Below, in pieces: positions 2,511-57,924 of a stretch of 64,000 bases of DNA. Location: assembly GCA_938084175.1 (NCBI GenBank), contig CALKDR010000024.1, positions 1 to 64,000 of the forward strand, given 5' to 3'. The DNA comes from an uncultured Campylobacterales bacterium. GTDB lineage: Bacteria > Campylobacterota > Campylobacteria > Campylobacterales > Arcobacteraceae. The position numbers were made by a program, and so were the translations under genes. The notes beneath the pieces were generated by a model that saw nothing but the letters and a program-made list of their open reading frames with translations, was not told where the DNA came from and made no database searches. The stretch's first letter is position 1, and each line of letters starts with the position of its first letter.

Positions 2511-2823
2511 CGTTTATTTCTGTAGTTTCAGTAACTTCAGGTTTTGCTTCTCTTTTACCTGCTACACTTAATATTTCCATATAAAGCGTTTCCCAATCTT
2601 CAGCTGATGCTTGATCAATATTTTTTGTAATATCAATAAAATCAATTACTATTGCTTCTTCATTATTTTTACCAAATTTACAATTAAAATTCCAAAAATC
2701 AACACCTTCTGCTTTTGGCTTGTTTTTTTCTCTTTTAATATATTTTCTAACTTCGTGTTTGATAGATTCAATTTGTCTATCAGGATGTTTGTTTTCAACT
2801 TTTAATTTGAATGTTTTTTTCAT
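2497..2823 (-). CDS. DUF6172 family small protein
   Basis: A 108-residue soluble protein resembling the conserved family DUF6172. The diagnostic part is the first ~75 residues: KHPDR, then a basic helix (IKHEVRKYIKREK), then GVDFWNFNC. The C-terminus is acidic and variable. No catalytic motif is visible and the function is unknown. The start is supported by AAAGGA 6 bases upstream and a TATAAT at 2841-2846 just before it. It appears to be a single-gene unit, convergent with the mutarotase-like gene. Confidence 0.75.
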   Translation of the reverse strand: MKKTFKLKVENKHPDRQIESIKHEVRKYIKREKNKPKAEGVDFWNFNCKFGKNNEEAIVIDFIDITKNIDQASAEDWETLYMEILSVAGKREAKPEVTETTEINEEDK

Positions 2824-2840
2824 TATATTCCTTTGTGCGC

Positions 2841-2846
2841 ATTATA
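2841..2846 (-). promoter_or_regulatory. -10 element (TATAAT) of the DUF6172 gene
   Basis: On the minus strand TATAAT is followed by GCGC, then AAAGGA and the ATG at 2823. The leader is only about 10-15 bases. Confidence 0.55.
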
Positions 2847-2966
2847 TCTGAACATTATTTGATATCACATTTTGAAAATTTACATTTTAATAATTTATAT
2901 AACATATATATAAAATATATTAAAACTCCTACTTCAAAAACTTGGTAAAGCATTTCCATTTATGTT

Positions 2967-3230
2967 TTACTGCTCTTTAGATTCTAAATTTTCAGAAATA
3001 TAATCATAAATTCTTTGATATTCACTATCTTCAGTTTTATCTTCTTTAATAACAGCTAATACATTTTCTAATTCTACTAAAAGTGATTCCATTTCAGTCA
3101 TTGCTAATTCATCATCCTCACTTTGTTTACCTTCTGCTAAAAGAATATGTAAATCCTCAAGATATGCTTCTACTTCTGGAATCATTGCATTTGCTACTAC
3201 GTCTTTTAGTTTGTCTTTTATTTCTGACAT
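2967..3230 (-). CDS. Small acidic helical protein, paralogue of the one at 24988
   Basis: An 87-residue, strongly acidic protein with no signal peptide or membrane segment. It reads as two or three amphipathic helices. I do not recognise a named family. It aligns end to end with the 84-residue protein at 24988-25242: IPEVEAYLEDL matches LPEIEENVDEL, and both continue with a charged turn followed by an MES/MED helix. The two are therefore probably paralogues. AAAGGA precedes its ATG. A candidate promoter and a perfect hairpin lie in its leader (3324-3384). The function is unknown. Confidence 0.7.
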   Translation of the reverse strand: MSEIKDKLKDVVANAMIPEVEAYLEDLHILLAEGKQSEDDELAMTEMESLLVELENVLAVIKEDKTEDSEYQRIYDYISENLESKEQ

Positions 3231-3323
3231 TTTTTATCCTTAAATTGATGTGTAATTATATTATTATAAATATTGGTTTAGCTTAGATGTTATTATTTAG
3301 TAGAAATTAATTAAGAAATTAGA

Positions 3324-3357
3324 TTAAAAAACTAAAGTTCGCGTTTTAGTTTTTTAA
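3324..3357. terminator. Perfect 13-bp inverted repeat in a divergent intergenic region
   Basis: TTAAAAAACTAAA at 3324-3336 pairs exactly with 3345-3357 around an 8-base loop containing TTCGCG. The A-tract/T-tract arms make it look like a bidirectional intrinsic terminator, yet the flanking genes diverge from here. On the minus strand it lies within about 15 bases of a likely transcription start, so it could act as a leader attenuator or end a very short RNA. Confidence 0.55.
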
Positions 3358-3378
3358 CCAAATGTTTTCGTGTTTGAT

Positions 3379-3384
3379 ATTATA
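3379..3384 (-). promoter_or_regulatory. -10 element (TATAAT, preceded by GGG) facing the acidic-protein gene
   Basis: On the minus strand AGGGTATAAT is the same context as the rhlE promoter. Transcription from it would run through the perfect inverted repeat at 3324-3357 and then into the gene starting at 3230. Confidence 0.5.
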
Positions 3385-3459
3385 CCCTAAAAAAGTTTAT
3401 TTTCTGTAATTAATACACATAATTAAGAATTATTAAACCTGAATATGAATATATTATTA

Positions 3460-3465
3460 TATAAT
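3460..3465 (+). promoter_or_regulatory. -10 element (TATAAT) of the methyltransferase gene
   Basis: TATAAT lies 19 bases before the ATG at 3485, within a run of A/T. The leader would be short, with only a weak ribosome site. Confidence 0.45.
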
Positions 3466-3484
3466 TATTAAAAAAGATTAATAA

Positions 3485-4426
3485 ATGAAAAAAATCACAA
3501 ATCAACCTATGACTGAGATAATTGATTATTTTGAAACTACTTTAAAAGATAATAAAATTATTAGTATTGAAGTTTTAAATCCAGACCTTGGAATTGATGA
3601 TTTTTCAGGTACGGTTATTTCTTTAGATGAGAATTATATTTATCATTCTTACAAATCTTGGACAGATTTATCAGAGTTGATGTTTTGTAAAATGCTTACT
3701 CCCATTATAATTAGTGAAAATACTGTTTGTTTGAAGTTCAAAAAACTTAATAAAGATAAGTCTTTTCATAAAGATATTAATACTGAAGAAAATGAAAAAT
3801 ATGGAATAGTATCTGATTTTTCTAAAATAAACAAAAATGAAGAACCAGCATTCATTTTCCCTTATAAAAAAGCATTGATTCATACAAAAGTTTATGAAAA
3901 AAGACAAATTTTAAATTTGGGAGTTAATAAAGCAGATGAATTTGAAGTTATAAAAAATATAGTTTATCCTGAAGTTTTTGAAAAAATAAATCTTGTTGGT
4001 ATTGATTATTCTAAAAGTGCTATAAAAGAGGCAAAAGAAAGATTTCCTGAAGAAAATTTTGATTTTTATTCTCATGATATAAATAAACTTGATGAGTTGA
4101 ATTTAAAAAAATCTGATTTAATAATCTCAATTGGAACTTTACAGTCTAGTAATATTGATTTTAAATTAGTTTTTATGTCTTTAATTCAAAACTACTTAGA
4201 AGATGGCGGTTGTATTATTTTAGGATTCCCAAACTGTAGATGGATTGAATCAGATATGATTTATGGTGCAAAAAACCCAACTTATTCTTATTCTGAACAA
4301 TCTTTACTTTATAAAGATGTTTATTTTTGCAAAAAATATTTACAACAAAAGAAGTTTAAAGTTACGCTAACAGGTAAAAATTATCTATTTTTAACAGCAA
4401 CTAGTATTAAAAAAAGTCATAAATAA
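3485..4426 (+). CDS. Class I SAM-dependent methyltransferase of unknown substrate
   Basis: A 313-residue cytoplasmic protein. About 110 N-terminal residues of unassigned sequence precede a Rossmann-type methyltransferase domain. That domain shows a motif I region (ILNLGVNKADE, near 140), an acidic ribose-binding residue in VGIDYSKSAI, a motif II/III region with DLIISIGTLQ, and a strand with GGCIILGFPN. Motif I lacks the usual GxGxG spacing, so cofactor binding is inferred from the overall pattern. The substrate is unknown. The Cys- and Trp-containing stretch near the end (FPNCRWIESDM) may line the active site. It seems to be a single-gene unit. Confidence 0.72.
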   Translation: MKKITNQPMTEIIDYFETTLKDNKIISIEVLNPDLGIDDFSGTVISLDENYIYHSYKSWTDLSELMFCKMLTPIIISENTVCLKFKKLNKDKSFHKDINTEENEKYGIVSDFSKINKNEEPAFIFPYKKALIHTKVYEKRQILNLGVNKADEFEVIKNIVYPEVFEKINLVGIDYSKSAIKEAKERFPEENFDFYSHDINKLDELNLKKSDLIISIGTLQSSNIDFKLVFMSLIQNYLEDGGCIILGFPNCRWIESDMIYGAKNPTYSYSEQSLLYKDVYFCKKYLQQKKFKVTLTGKNYLFLTATSIKKSHK

Positions 4427-29382: not shown

Positions 29383-29486
29383 ATTTACTCCAAAATCACA
29401 CTTTTTAAAATATACTAGCACTAACAAAGATCATTAATAAGATTATTAAAATAGCTTATACTATAATGTAAGTCTTAAAGTATTAA

Positions 29487-30915
29487 CATAAATGTATAAA
29501 AATATCTATTTTATTACCCAATGAAGATTGATCAATTACAAGTAAAAATTATGCTATTTCAAAAGATTTAAATGAAGCAATTGATGATGCTTTCAACCCA
29601 AAACTTTTAAGTAAAATTGACATTTTAAAATGTAATGAGTATATTGCTTTAAATCGTATTTCAATTGGTGATATGCATGGAATGAACAGATTAGATTATA
29701 ATAATCTTAAAAACATTATATTTAGAAGTTATAATTTAACTACTTCAAAAGATTATTCAATAAAAACATCAGTCTCTGGAATTACTATTCTTGAGCATTC
29801 TTCTATTTCAAATCAAGAATCAGCCATTAGAGATGAATTATCTATCCATTTAGGTAGAACTCTTCTTGATATTGTTAAAAATGATGAGAATAAAGTAGAA
29901 GAGAAAGATTTAATAAAGTTAAATTCTTTACCAAAAGCTGAAGTTAGTAGTATATTAATTGGTGGCAAACTACCTGTATTTAAAAAAGCAAGTGATGAGG
30001 ATTTTAAAGATTTATTAGTAAGTTTAAAAGAGAGTGCTAGTTTTTCTTATACTTATTTAACTTTAATGATTATAAGTACATTATTAGCTACTACAGGACT
30101 TTTTGCAAACTCATCACCTGTAATTCATAGGTGCTATGATTTTAGCTCCTTTAATGGCTCCTATAATATCTTTATCAATGGGAGTTGTTCGTGCAGATGC
30201 TTTTTTATTAAGTAAGAGTGCTAAAACATTAATTTTTGGTATTTTTATGGCTTTACTCTTTTCTAGTATTTTTACTATGTTTATTCCCTTGGAGCAAATA
30301 ACTTCAGAAATGCAAGGAAGATTAAATCCTAATTTATTAGATTTAATGGTTGCAATATTTTCAGGAATAGCAGGTGCTTATGCTACTTCAAAAGAAGAGG
30401 TTAGTAAATCACTTGCAGGTGTTGCAATTGCTGTTGCTTTAGTACCACCTTTAAGTGTTACAGGAATAGGAATTGGACTTGCAAATTTTGATGTAATATA
30501 TGGTTCTTTTTTATTGTTTATAACAAACTTAGTTGGAATTACATTAAGTGCAGCTTTTACTTTTATGGTATTAGGATTTGCTCCTATTAAAAGAGCTAAA
30601 AAAGGTATTTTTTATACTTCAATTTTAATGGCTTTAATTGCAATTCCATTAGTACTATCTTTTATGCAAGTTGTACAAAAAAATGACTACTTTAATAAAC
30701 TAAATAACATTAAATATTTAGAAATCAATAAAGAAAAAATAGAATTAAATATTCAATCTTTAGAAAATAAAAAGACTGCGATTTTTATAAATATAGAAGT
30801 AGTTTCAAATAAGCATCTATCATTAGAAGATTACAATTTTATTAAAGAAAAATTAGAAGAAACAGTTAATAAAAAAACAGTTTTAAAAATTATACCAATA
30901 ATAGAAATAGACTAA
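29487..30915 (+). pseudogene. DUF389 (TIGR00341-type) membrane protein, broken
   Basis: The region encodes a DUF389 integral membrane protein in two frames. The first half (29532-30125) gives a soluble N-terminal domain and the first helix, ending LFANSSPV. The frame then shifts, and the second half continues IIGAMILAPLMAPIISLSMG and the remaining helices to 30915. One extra base, the C at 30126, accounts for the shift: removing it restores PVIIGAMI. Upstream, the same frame holds a TGA at 29529-29531 (in NED-stop-SITSKNYA, probably once TGG) and no usable start codon. Two separate lesions argue for a real pseudogene, although a sequence error could explain either one alone. Confidence 0.8.
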
Positions 30916-53961: not shown

Positions 53962-54408
53962 CTAGTTATATTTTTGCAAAAAACTATTTAATGAGTTTGC
54001 AAATTGCTGTGAATCTTTAATCCCAAAAGCAGCTGGGCCTTTTGTTACTTCACCACTATCTCTTATTTCTTGCATAAGATTTCTATATGCTAGATACTGT
54101 TTTATATTGTCTTGTGTATACATAGCACCTCTATGATCAATTGCATGAGCATTTTTTGATATAACTCTATCAGCTAATGGAATATCAGCAGTTATTACTA
54201 AATCATTCTCGTGAAGAAGTTCTACTATTTTATTATCAGCTTCATCAGCACCTGCTTCAACAATCATATATTTTACATATTGTGATTTTCCTATATTTAT
54301 TTTTTTATTTGCTATAACAATTGTATCAAGTTTTAGTCTTTCAATTGCTCTTAAAACAATAGGTTTTAATAAATTTGGAAAGGCATCACCATCTATATAT
54401 AATATCAT
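53962..54408 (-). CDS. YaiI/YqxD family (DUF188) protein
   Basis: A 148-residue soluble protein of the DUF188 family, with a PIN/NYN-like nuclease-type fold. The family pattern is clear: ILYIDGDAFPNLLKPIV at the N-terminus (conserved Asp pair), EAGADEADNKIVELLHENDLVITADIPLADRVI (with more acidic residues that could hold metal), and AIDHRGAMYTQDNI. The enzymatic role is unproven. It overlaps the upstream broken membrane gene by 4 bases and is the last gene of a long minus-strand operon. Confidence 0.9.
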   Translation of the reverse strand: MILYIDGDAFPNLLKPIVLRAIERLKLDTIVIANKKINIGKSQYVKYMIVEAGADEADNKIVELLHENDLVITADIPLADRVISKNAHAIDHRGAMYTQDNIKQYLAYRNLMQEIRDSGEVTKGPAAFGIKDSQQFANSLNSFLQKYN

Positions 54409-55142
54409 ATTTTTTCTCTTTTTATTTTTTGTAAATTACGTAATTTTTTCCATTGTATTTTATTTAACTGTTTATAAATAAGTAAGCAGCCAATATCAAA
54501 TCCAAAATAAAATACACTAATACCACTTGGTGGATTTGAACTTGAAATAAGAGTAATTTCATTAAACCAAATTTCAGGCCAATACCAACATTGATAATAT
54601 GTTCCTAAAAGTTCTAAATACACAATCATAAAGAACATTATTAAAAAAAACATTCTTGTATGAGGTTTTTTACTAATAATTAGAATAATCCCTAACATAC
54701 ATAAAAAACCAAATACATCATTATCAAAAATCAACCAAAGTGTTGAATAAAGTATCATTGATAAGAAAAGTATTTTAATTACTAATTCTTTATGCTTTTT
54801 TATTGCAGGCTCTTTAGAAAAATAAAAAACTGCAGCATAAATAATACTATGACCAAAAGGAACATACAAAGGAAGATTTTCTAATCTGTATGTATACATT
54901 CCAAGAATTAATGTAAATAAAGCTTCACCTAAAACAGCTAATATAATACCATAAAGCATCAGTTCTTTGATTTTAGTTGATACTTTTTAATAAACCCAAA
55001 TAAATGTGCAAATAGTAATAATATTAGTAAAATACTGACTATTTATAAATTCATTTGAAACTGCTTTACTATTAATAAAAAGACCAATCCAAAGTGTTAT
55101 AAAAACTGGAATATAAATATGTAAATACTTATAACTAGGCAT
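54405..55142 (-). pseudogene. Multi-pass membrane protein interrupted by an in-frame TAA
   Basis: The frame starts with ATG at 55142 (its A is shared with the TAA of the EnvC-like gene, so TAATG coupling) and reads MPSYKYLHIYIPVFITLWIG and onward to FIWVY. It then meets TAA at 54987-54989 and continues in the same frame through KVSTKIKELMLYGIILAVLG to the true end. Without the TAA it would be one 245-residue protein with about seven membrane helices. The downstream part alone (from ATG at 54959, 184 residues) could still be made by reinitiation. I do not recognise the family. The intact overlap with the genes on both sides argues that the frame was functional until recently, or that the stop is a sequence error. 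Confidence 0.7.
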
Positions 55143-56467
55143 TAAATTCTAAATAAATCTTTTGGATTAATATGTGCAGAATTCTTTGTTGCTTGAAATG
55201 TAAGGTTCTTATTTACTCGACCTACTACATAACCTTTTTTTATCCATTTACCAACTTTTAATGTAGGAGCTATTTCATCTAAATGTGAGTAAATAGTATG
55301 AAGTCCATTTTGATGTTGTATAATAACTACATTTTGAAGCATTCCTGAATTCTTTTTTGCATAAACAACTTTGCCATTTAGTACTGAAACAACTTTTGCT
55401 TTTGTCTTTTTTGTTTTTAAAACAATTGATTCATTAAAAAGTTTAATTTTATAAATTGGATCATAATAAGTACCAAACTTTTTTATAACTTTAAAAGACT
55501 TTAAAGGTGCAATAGTTTTTTTACCTCTATATCTAACTACTTTAACTCCCGATGTAGAAGAACCAATTTTTTTTACATCTAAATTTAGATTTTTTGCATA
55601 TTTTTGATTTCTTACTTCTGCTGTTTGTATAGTTTCTTTTTTTGCTTTTGTTTTATTCTGTTTTCTTTTTTTTGCTTCTTGTTTCTTTTTCTTTAAAGCA
55701 AGTAGTCTTTGAATTTTAACTTTTCTAATTCTTTCTTTTCTAATTTCGGCTTCTTTCAAAATATTAAGGTTTGATAAAAGTTTTTTTAAAGATTCTTGTT
55801 GTTCAACTACTTTTTTTAACTCTTTTTGATAAGATTTATGTTGTCCTTCTAGATTAACTAAAGATTTAGAGTGCTTGTTTTTTAAGGTGTTTAATGTGTT
55901 TTTTGTTTTTCTTCTTTTTTCAATATAAGTAGAAATCTTTTGTATTTTCTTTTTATTCATTTTTGTATTATTAGTTAATAAATCATAACTATTATCAAGT
56001 TTTAGAATTTGATCCTTAGAGTTTTCAGAAAGTAGTGTATATATTTCACTATCAATTAATTCTCCAAGCGTATTTTTTGAAGCTAACTTAAGGGCAATAG
56101 AAGTAGAAAAATCTTCAATAATAGTATCAACTATTTGTTCTTCATTCCCTTTTTTTTCTTTTATAAGGCTTGAAGATTTTTTTCTTAATTGAGATAATTT
56201 TACTTTTGATTCTTCTAAAAGCATTTCATGTTCATTAATATCTGAATTTACTTTTTTTATATTTTTTTCTAGCTTTATAATATTTTTGTTTTGTGATTCT
56301 ATTTTACTAGCTAAAGACTTCACTTTTTGTGATGTTTGTTTCTTTTTTGAAACACTTTTATTCAAGTTTTTTTTATTACTTTTAATTTTGTTATCTATTA
56401 CTTTTGTTGAAGAAAAAGCAATGCTAGTAAAAGTGAATAAAAATAAAAATATTAGTTTATTCATCAT
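55142..56467 (-). CDS. EnvC-like murein hydrolase activator (degenerate LytM/M23)
   Basis: An exported 441-residue protein. It has a signal peptide (about 1-20), a long coiled coil (about 24-130 and 165-290), and a C-terminal LytM-type domain (about 320-441). The LytM domain has lost catalytic residues. IYSHLDEIAPTLKVG keeps one His, but the second zinc-binding site reads LTFQATKNSAHINP instead of the usual HLHFE. As in E. coli EnvC, this fits an activator of amidases rather than a peptidase. It follows ftsE and ftsX, overlapping ftsX by 11 bases, which is the usual partner set for septal wall splitting. Confidence 0.88.
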   Translation of the reverse strand: MMNKLIFLFLFTFTSIAFSSTKVIDNKIKSNKKNLNKSVSKKKQTSQKVKSLASKIESQNKNIIKLEKNIKKVNSDINEHEMLLEESKVKLSQLRKKSSSLIKEKKGNEEQIVDTIIEDFSTSIALKLASKNTLGELIDSEIYTLLSENSKDQILKLDNSYDLLTNNTKMNKKKIQKISTYIEKRRKTKNTLNTLKNKHSKSLVNLEGQHKSYQKELKKVVEQQESLKKLLSNLNILKEAEIRKERIRKVKIQRLLALKKKKQEAKKRKQNKTKAKKETIQTAEVRNQKYAKNLNLDVKKIGSSTSGVKVVRYRGKKTIAPLKSFKVIKKFGTYYDPIYKIKLFNESIVLKTKKTKAKVVSVLNGKVVYAKKNSGMLQNVVIIQHQNGLHTIYSHLDEIAPTLKVGKWIKKGYVVGRVNKNLTFQATKNSAHINPKDLFRI

Positions 56468-57275
56468 TTATTTTATACTTTAATAATACACCAAGTATTG
56501 TAAAAATAGAAATTGTAAATGAAAGTATAAACAATTTAAATAGTTCATAGTTTAAATCAACTTCCACATTAATTATTTCATGTAATTCAATAGGAAAGAG
56601 TAAAGTCATATTATTAGAAATATAATATAAAAAACCACCCACTATTATGAATGCTAATAAAGAACTAACAATCGCATAATTTAATACTGTAGAAGCACTA
56701 TATAAAACAGATGCTCCATGTAGTCTTAAAATAGCTATTCTAGTACTGTGTTCGTGAAACCATAGTTTGATTTGCTTAGCAATTATTATGATTGCAAAAA
56801 TTGTAATTATAAAAAATAGTATAAAAGAAATCGTACTTAATAATAGTAAAAGTAAATATGTTTGATTATGATTTTTATAAAACACTTCAACATTTCTAAC
56901 ATTTTTGTTTTGTAACAAAGTTTCTTTTATTGTCTCAAGTTCACTTGTTGTAGGGAATACTTTTAGGTATATTTGATAGAAATTTGGAAGTTTCTTTTTA
57001 AGTAGTGCTATTGAAGATGTTGATAAATTTGATTTTATATCATTAATTATTTTATCTTTAGGTAAAGTTTGAATTCTTTCAACTTTTATACCTGCTAACT
57101 CATCAATATTTTCTTTTATTAAAGGCGTATTTGTAACTATTACAATAGAGTAGTCTCTTGATATTTTTTTCTTATAGTTATTCACAACATTATCAATTAA
57201 CAAATATAATGAAAATGTTAAAAGCATTGAGCATAATGGAATTAAGAAAGCAAAAATATTTTTAAGAAACTTCAT
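56457..57275 (-). CDS. ftsX: FtsX-like permease subunit
   Basis: A 272-residue inner-membrane protein with the FtsX layout: a first helix (about 8-28), a periplasmic domain of about 110 residues (VIVTNTPLIKENIDELAGIK), then three helices (about 142-168, 196-218, 246-265). The segment WFHEHSTRIAILRLHGAS between helices two and three matches the FtsX cytoplasmic loop. With FtsE it transmits ATP hydrolysis across the membrane to the EnvC-like activator. It overlaps ftsE by 14 bases and the EnvC-like gene by 11. Confidence 0.9.
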   Translation of the reverse strand: MKFLKNIFAFLIPLCSMLLTFSLYLLIDNVVNNYKKKISRDYSIVIVTNTPLIKENIDELAGIKVERIQTLPKDKIINDIKSNLSTSSIALLKKKLPNFYQIYLKVFPTTSELETIKETLLQNKNVRNVEVFYKNHNQTYLLLLLLSTISFILFFIITIFAIIIIAKQIKLWFHEHSTRIAILRLHGASVLYSASTVLNYAIVSSLLAFIIVGGFLYYISNNMTLLFPIELHEIINVEVDLNYELFKLFILSFTISIFTILGVLLKYKINDE

Positions 57276-57924
57276 ATATTATACCATCCTCTAAAGACAA
57301 CTGTCTAAATTTAATTCCTAAATTTTTTGGAACTCTATGTGTTACTACAACAATTGTAATTCCTAATTGTTCATTAGCACCTTTTAATAAATTCCATACA
57401 ACTTCAGCTGAATAATCATCAAGGTTTCCCGTTGGTTCATCTGCTATTATAATTTTTGGATTATGTGCAAGTGCCCTAGCAACTGCAACTCTTTGCTGCT
57501 CCCCACCACTTAATTCATTTGGGTAATATCCAGCTCTATGAGAAAGTTTTACATGTGATAATAGTTTCTTTGCTTGATCTTTAGATATCTCGCTTGAATA
57601 GCCATTGATTTTTAAAGGAATCATAATGTTTTCTTCAATAGTATATTCGTTAACAAGTTTATAATCTTGAAATATTACTCCAATATCTTTTCTTAAAACT
57701 CTAAGTTTTTTTCCTTTTATTCCAAAAACTTCTACACCATCAATCTTTAAACTACCATGTTTTAAAGGTATTTCTCCATAAAAAGATTTTAATAAAGTTG
57801 ATTTTCCACTTCCTGAGTTTCCACCTATGAAGATGAATTCTTTAGGTTTAATAGAAAAATTTCCTTTTTTTATAATATATTTATTATCATCATATGATAG
57901 GTATATATTTTTGGCTTCGAGCAT
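57262..57924 (-). CDS. ftsE: Cell division ABC ATPase FtsE
   Basis: A 220-residue ABC ATPase. It shows Walker [11 protein letters not shown] (about 34-43), a Q-loop in [18 protein letters not shown] (the sequence typical of FtsE/LolD-like proteins), the signature [15 protein letters not shown], Walker [13 protein letters not shown], and the H-loop in VVVTHR. Identity as FtsE rather than LolD rests on the FtsX-like gene and EnvC-like gene directly downstream. It starts on the last base of the trmB stop. Confidence 0.92.

Follow-up and report, generated by a model that had tools for sequence, protein, structure and literature searches.

A single in-frame stop in a membrane-protein gene after ftsEX-envC probably records recent gene loss in a relative of Poseidonibacter ostreae

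Recent pseudogenes with a single nonsense lesion are familiar from reducing bacterial genomes. In such cases, one stop interrupts an accessory gene that has intact orthologues, the frame is otherwise kept, decayed genes lie nearby and the gene is missing in relatives. The locus described here resembles them in all these respects, with the difference that here we infer both the base and the loss of the product. A second point of comparison is the orthologue of P. ostreae SJOD-M-5, which occupies the same place after envC, has the same length and shares 73% identity over the whole frame, but has no internal stop and retains two residues, D24 and R233. More distant relatives form an unnamed family found in Campylobacterota, Zetaproteobacteria and Flavobacteriaceae. 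They share the length and the invariant motifs, whereas in other genomes the gene stands in other neighbourhoods and occurs twice in some Polaribacter. In the library searched, we found no paper on Poseidonibacter pseudogenes, nor on ftsEX-envC in Arcobacter.

The window (the whole stretch of 64,000 nucleotides analysed) lies on contig C24 of a genome belonging to the genus of P. ostreae. On its minus strand lie an ftsE-like ABC ATPase gene (57262-57924), an ftsX-like gene (56457-57275; Pfam FtsX at 17.3 bits, under the curated cut-off), an envC-like gene (55142-56467; Peptidase_M23), the interrupted gene (54405-55142) and a yaiI/yqxD-family gene (DUF188; 53962-54408). The interrupted gene would encode a polytopic membrane protein of about 245 residues, for whose family neither Pfam nor NCBIfam has a model. 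Its frame comprises 245 codons and a final stop, from the ATG at 55142 to the TGA at 54407-54405. When re-read, it was in phase throughout with exactly one internal stop, a TAA at 54989-54987 (codon 52), as the earlier note had reported. The overlaps with both neighbours are likewise kept, the envC stop and the membrane-gene ATG sharing TAATG, and the membrane-gene TGA and the yaiI ATG (54408) sharing ATGA. The TAA removes everything past predicted helix 2 of the 245-residue protein, and invariant columns lie on both sides of it. The next in-frame ATG, at 54959 (codon 62), is found 28 nt past the TAA and opens the longest ORF left, of 184 amino acids (54405-54959).

The proposal that the TAA splits one gene was supported by comparison with the sister genomes, which yielded intact 245-codon orthologues. 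The downstream protein was matched in seven of the 10 genomes of the genus, namely the window genome and six of its nine sisters. In each of the six gene-bearing sisters the 245-codon gene lies within a 247-codon open frame free of interruptions, all six keep the order envC, membrane gene, yaiI, and their orthologues are 70-73% identical to our frame over its whole length. The protein of one of them (G006, locus L004) is identical to that of P. ostreae SJOD-M-5 (L009). Six sisters have uninterrupted 245-codon genes in this position, and since our frame matches them with no gap, its continuation on both sides of the TAA is not due to chance. A frameshift with a TGATG overlap, proposed by eye from a +1 reading near the stop, was rejected since, either side of the stop, the sisters align gap-free in the original frame.

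We then asked where the gene begins, using 87 loci with homologues (L002-L088, which include three identical pairs). A start is possible at least 75 codons ahead of the MYTYRLEN-like motif in 83 of the 87, and 73 codons ahead in the two Sulfurovum loci (L011, L012), which carry a short deletion. In two Polaribacter loci (L066, L088), around positions 2700-3550, the family homologues appear frameshift-broken from a by-eye reading of three frames. The earlier note had considered that homologues might begin at the downstream ATG and bear no relation to the upstream codons; we looked for such homologues among the 87 loci and found none built in this way. The upstream 51 codons (54990-55142) hold the homologue-invariant columns D24 and Q36. 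They also cover predicted helices 1 and 2 (residues 7-23 and 35-53) of the P. ostreae protein, modelled from 25 sequences with a mean pLDDT of 87.8 and a pTM of 0.83. In this model the ATG of codon 62 sits inside helix 3 (56-78). The upstream 51 codons are part of the gene.

Our best reading of the locus, which we consider probable, is a recent nonsense loss of a dispensable accessory membrane-protein gene. The gene product would be a dispensable multi-helix membrane protein, its gene having been gained or retained behind envC in this genus and in a related one. A single nonsense substitution at codon 52 would recently have inactivated it in the window lineage. Translation from the envC-coupled ATG would stop past two transmembrane helices and the remainder would be unable to make the conserved protein. 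The inactivation would belong to an ongoing loss of genes: at 1.74 Mb (85% complete) the genome is smaller than most of its sisters, eight of the nine measuring 2.5-3.6 Mb. We infer that the TAA is a real base and that functional protein is probably not made from the interrupted gene, whose loss would have been neutral or nearly so. The case is an ordinary event.

We regard the membrane gene as dispensable because it is absent from three sisters and scarce beyond the genus. In the small sister genome G005 (1.5 Mb, 88% complete), envC adjoins yaiI with nothing between (L107:10174-10193). In G008 and G009, no homologue of the membrane gene was found and yaiI is present in another setting. Among other genera of the same family the gene occurs in one of 27 genomes (G026, again after envC), and in other families of the order none of 23 genomes matched it. 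A search of GTDB contigs found 83 loci, of which 80 were kept. They fall in Campylobacterota, in Zetaproteobacteria and in numerous Flavobacteriaceae, and some genomes hold two copies. The case mainly documents a recent loss, and it identifies the dispensable member of the ftsEX-envC-yaiI run for this genus. Were the stop real, translation of yaiI, coupled through the ATGA, could also suffer.

To assess the age of the stop, a codon model was fitted to seven genus sequences; since synonymous sites are almost saturated (branch about 3), its omega figures are rough. Omega was 0.090 on the window branch and 0.103 elsewhere (p 0.73), another estimate being 0.091 against 0.101, and omega = 1 was rejected on the window branch (2 delta lnL 26.8). 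Upstream of the stop, omega was 0.126 on the window branch against 0.173 in the background, and downstream 0.081 against 0.084, omega = 1 being rejected in both parts. The bound near 95% for the window branch was 0.17-0.19 under either of two topologies, so that, by our own conversion, unconstrained evolution could fill no more than about a tenth of the branch. As the window branch is as constrained as the sisters, the stop would be young. The constraint is what a young stop or an error would leave, and it argues against a truncation that has long been tolerated.

The same data supply what can be held against a recent loss: omega is not raised on the window branch, both halves behave alike, the stop is single, there is no frameshift and both gene overlaps are intact. 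The genome is moreover a draft, presumably a metagenome assembly, in which one wrong base would look identical. The main rival reading is a sequencing or assembly error: the organism's 245-codon gene would be intact, and a single wrong base in the draft would have produced the TAA. An error would account for there being exactly one lesion and for both halves being constrained as in the sisters, and the assembly of 1.74 Mb lies in 74 contigs and is 85% complete. Nevertheless, we consider this explanation unlikely. Substitutions are rare as consensus errors, unlike homopolymer indels, and two further changes at invariant columns would require coincidence or additional errors. These changes are D24 to Asn and R233 to Lys (codon 233, 54444-54446), both residues being invariant in all 82 other rows of the alignment, from which L009, L010 and L025 (duplicates) and L066 and L088 (broken) had been left out. 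Over the full-length alignment, 35 of the 37 near-invariant family columns are retained in the window gene, D24 and R233 being the two that changed. When each row was left out in turn, at 98% conservation, 74 of the 83 rows showed no departure, seven showed one, and only the window gene and L006 showed two. The two substitutions would point to relaxed constraint.

The error explanation was also weighed against the state of other genes in the draft. A reference-free search for split genes by codon usage returned noise and even missed the membrane gene, and comparison with the ORFs of the sister genome G003 was used instead, on a sample covering 284 kb of the window genome and 1.22 Mb of G003. 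Among the 88 G003 ORFs covered, 79 were uninterrupted in the window genome. Of the nine flagged, five had their stops confined to a start extension, two were apparent antisense shadow frames and two were real, namely the membrane gene and a DUF389 gene. In the reverse comparison, 84 of 87 covered ORFs were uninterrupted and the other three had a stop only in the last residues. In the sampled G003 comparison the TAA was the sole isolated internal stop, a point against the error explanation. The DUF389 membrane-protein gene (about 29478-30915, plus strand) is interrupted by two in-frame stops, has lost internal segments and shifts frame near 30126, a set of lesions that is not one error. As this gene is decayed, the window genome does carry decayed genes. 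The two interrupted genes share one pattern of occurrence, both being intact in six of the nine sisters (G001-G004, G006, G007), absent from G005, G008 and G009 and broken in the window genome; this may reflect shared descent only.

Another explanation could be reinitiation at the ATG at 54959, which would yield a truncated but functional 184-residue protein, acting by itself or with the 51-residue fragment. This ATG lies close behind the stop, 75 of 82 rows have Met at the codon-62 column, and the part after the TAA is constrained (omega 0.081). However, the conserved Met is internal to predicted helix 3, and the short form would be without helices 1 and 2 and without the invariant D24 and Q36. 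None of the 87 homologues has this architecture, and the constraint on the upstream part, similar to the background (0.126 vs 0.173), is not what the short-form idea predicts for an old stop. The Shine-Dalgarno match at 54959 is weak (-1.1 kcal/mol; over 958 ATGs on the strand the median is 0.1 and the best quarter is at -2.2 or lower). By itself it decides little, since the match at the envC-coupled ATG is weak too (-0.8 kcal/mol). Altogether, we regard reinitiation as quite improbable. A related possibility is a split protein, in which a two-helix, envC-coupled N-terminal piece and a six-helix piece reinitiated at 54959 would still assemble and work; constraint would therefore persist on both halves, and yet we give this arrangement a very slim chance. 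Finally, readthrough or a suppressor tRNA restoring the full-length protein is the least credible, for although the codon-52 column is variable (nine different residues in 82 homologue rows), so that many residues could be tolerated there, and both flanks of the TAA remain constrained, no stop occurs at codon 52 in any of the seven orthologues of the codon-model set, TAA is as a rule read through less than the other stops and the neighbouring operon genes end normally. Thus, among the four outcomes listed in the earlier note, decay fits best and error remains the main rival, while reinitiation and readthrough found no support.

The recent loss, our preferred reading, draws attention to a family of membrane proteins that is unnamed yet well conserved and common to distant marine lineages. 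Its invariant motifs are a MYTYRLEN-like sequence and WP...NPPSG. No family in Pfam or NCBIfam scored above cut-off for the protein, a PDB profile search gave no match, and Foldseek returned no match with E <= 0.001 for the predicted fold. On a second look, weak fold matches were obtained with MvINS (Insig-like; Z 5.1, 141 aligned, rmsd 4.4) and with the CAAX protease Rce1 (Z 4.8, 126 aligned, rmsd 3.9), Z values of a size that helical models often give. None of this shows that the fold is new. The family may bear some resemblance to carotenoid enzymes.

The position after ftsEX-envC had been read as a hint of a division-linked membrane protein, and this part of the earlier note fared less well. 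The association with ftsEX-envC appears not to be conserved across the gene-bearing lineages, being seen in the six sisters and G026. In G005 envC adjoins yaiI without the gene, and no ftsEX-envC neighbourhood was seen beside the homologues in 15 distant loci, which were read by eye over the first 70 residues of their neighbours, two neighbours being scanned. A division role, which local gene order suggests, is unsupported though conceivable. In the Sulfurovum loci L011 and L012 (58-2788), genes encoding AnmK (by Pfam), an APH-family kinase and a presumably MurU-like protein stand opposite the homologue, a context that would point to peptidoglycan recycling.
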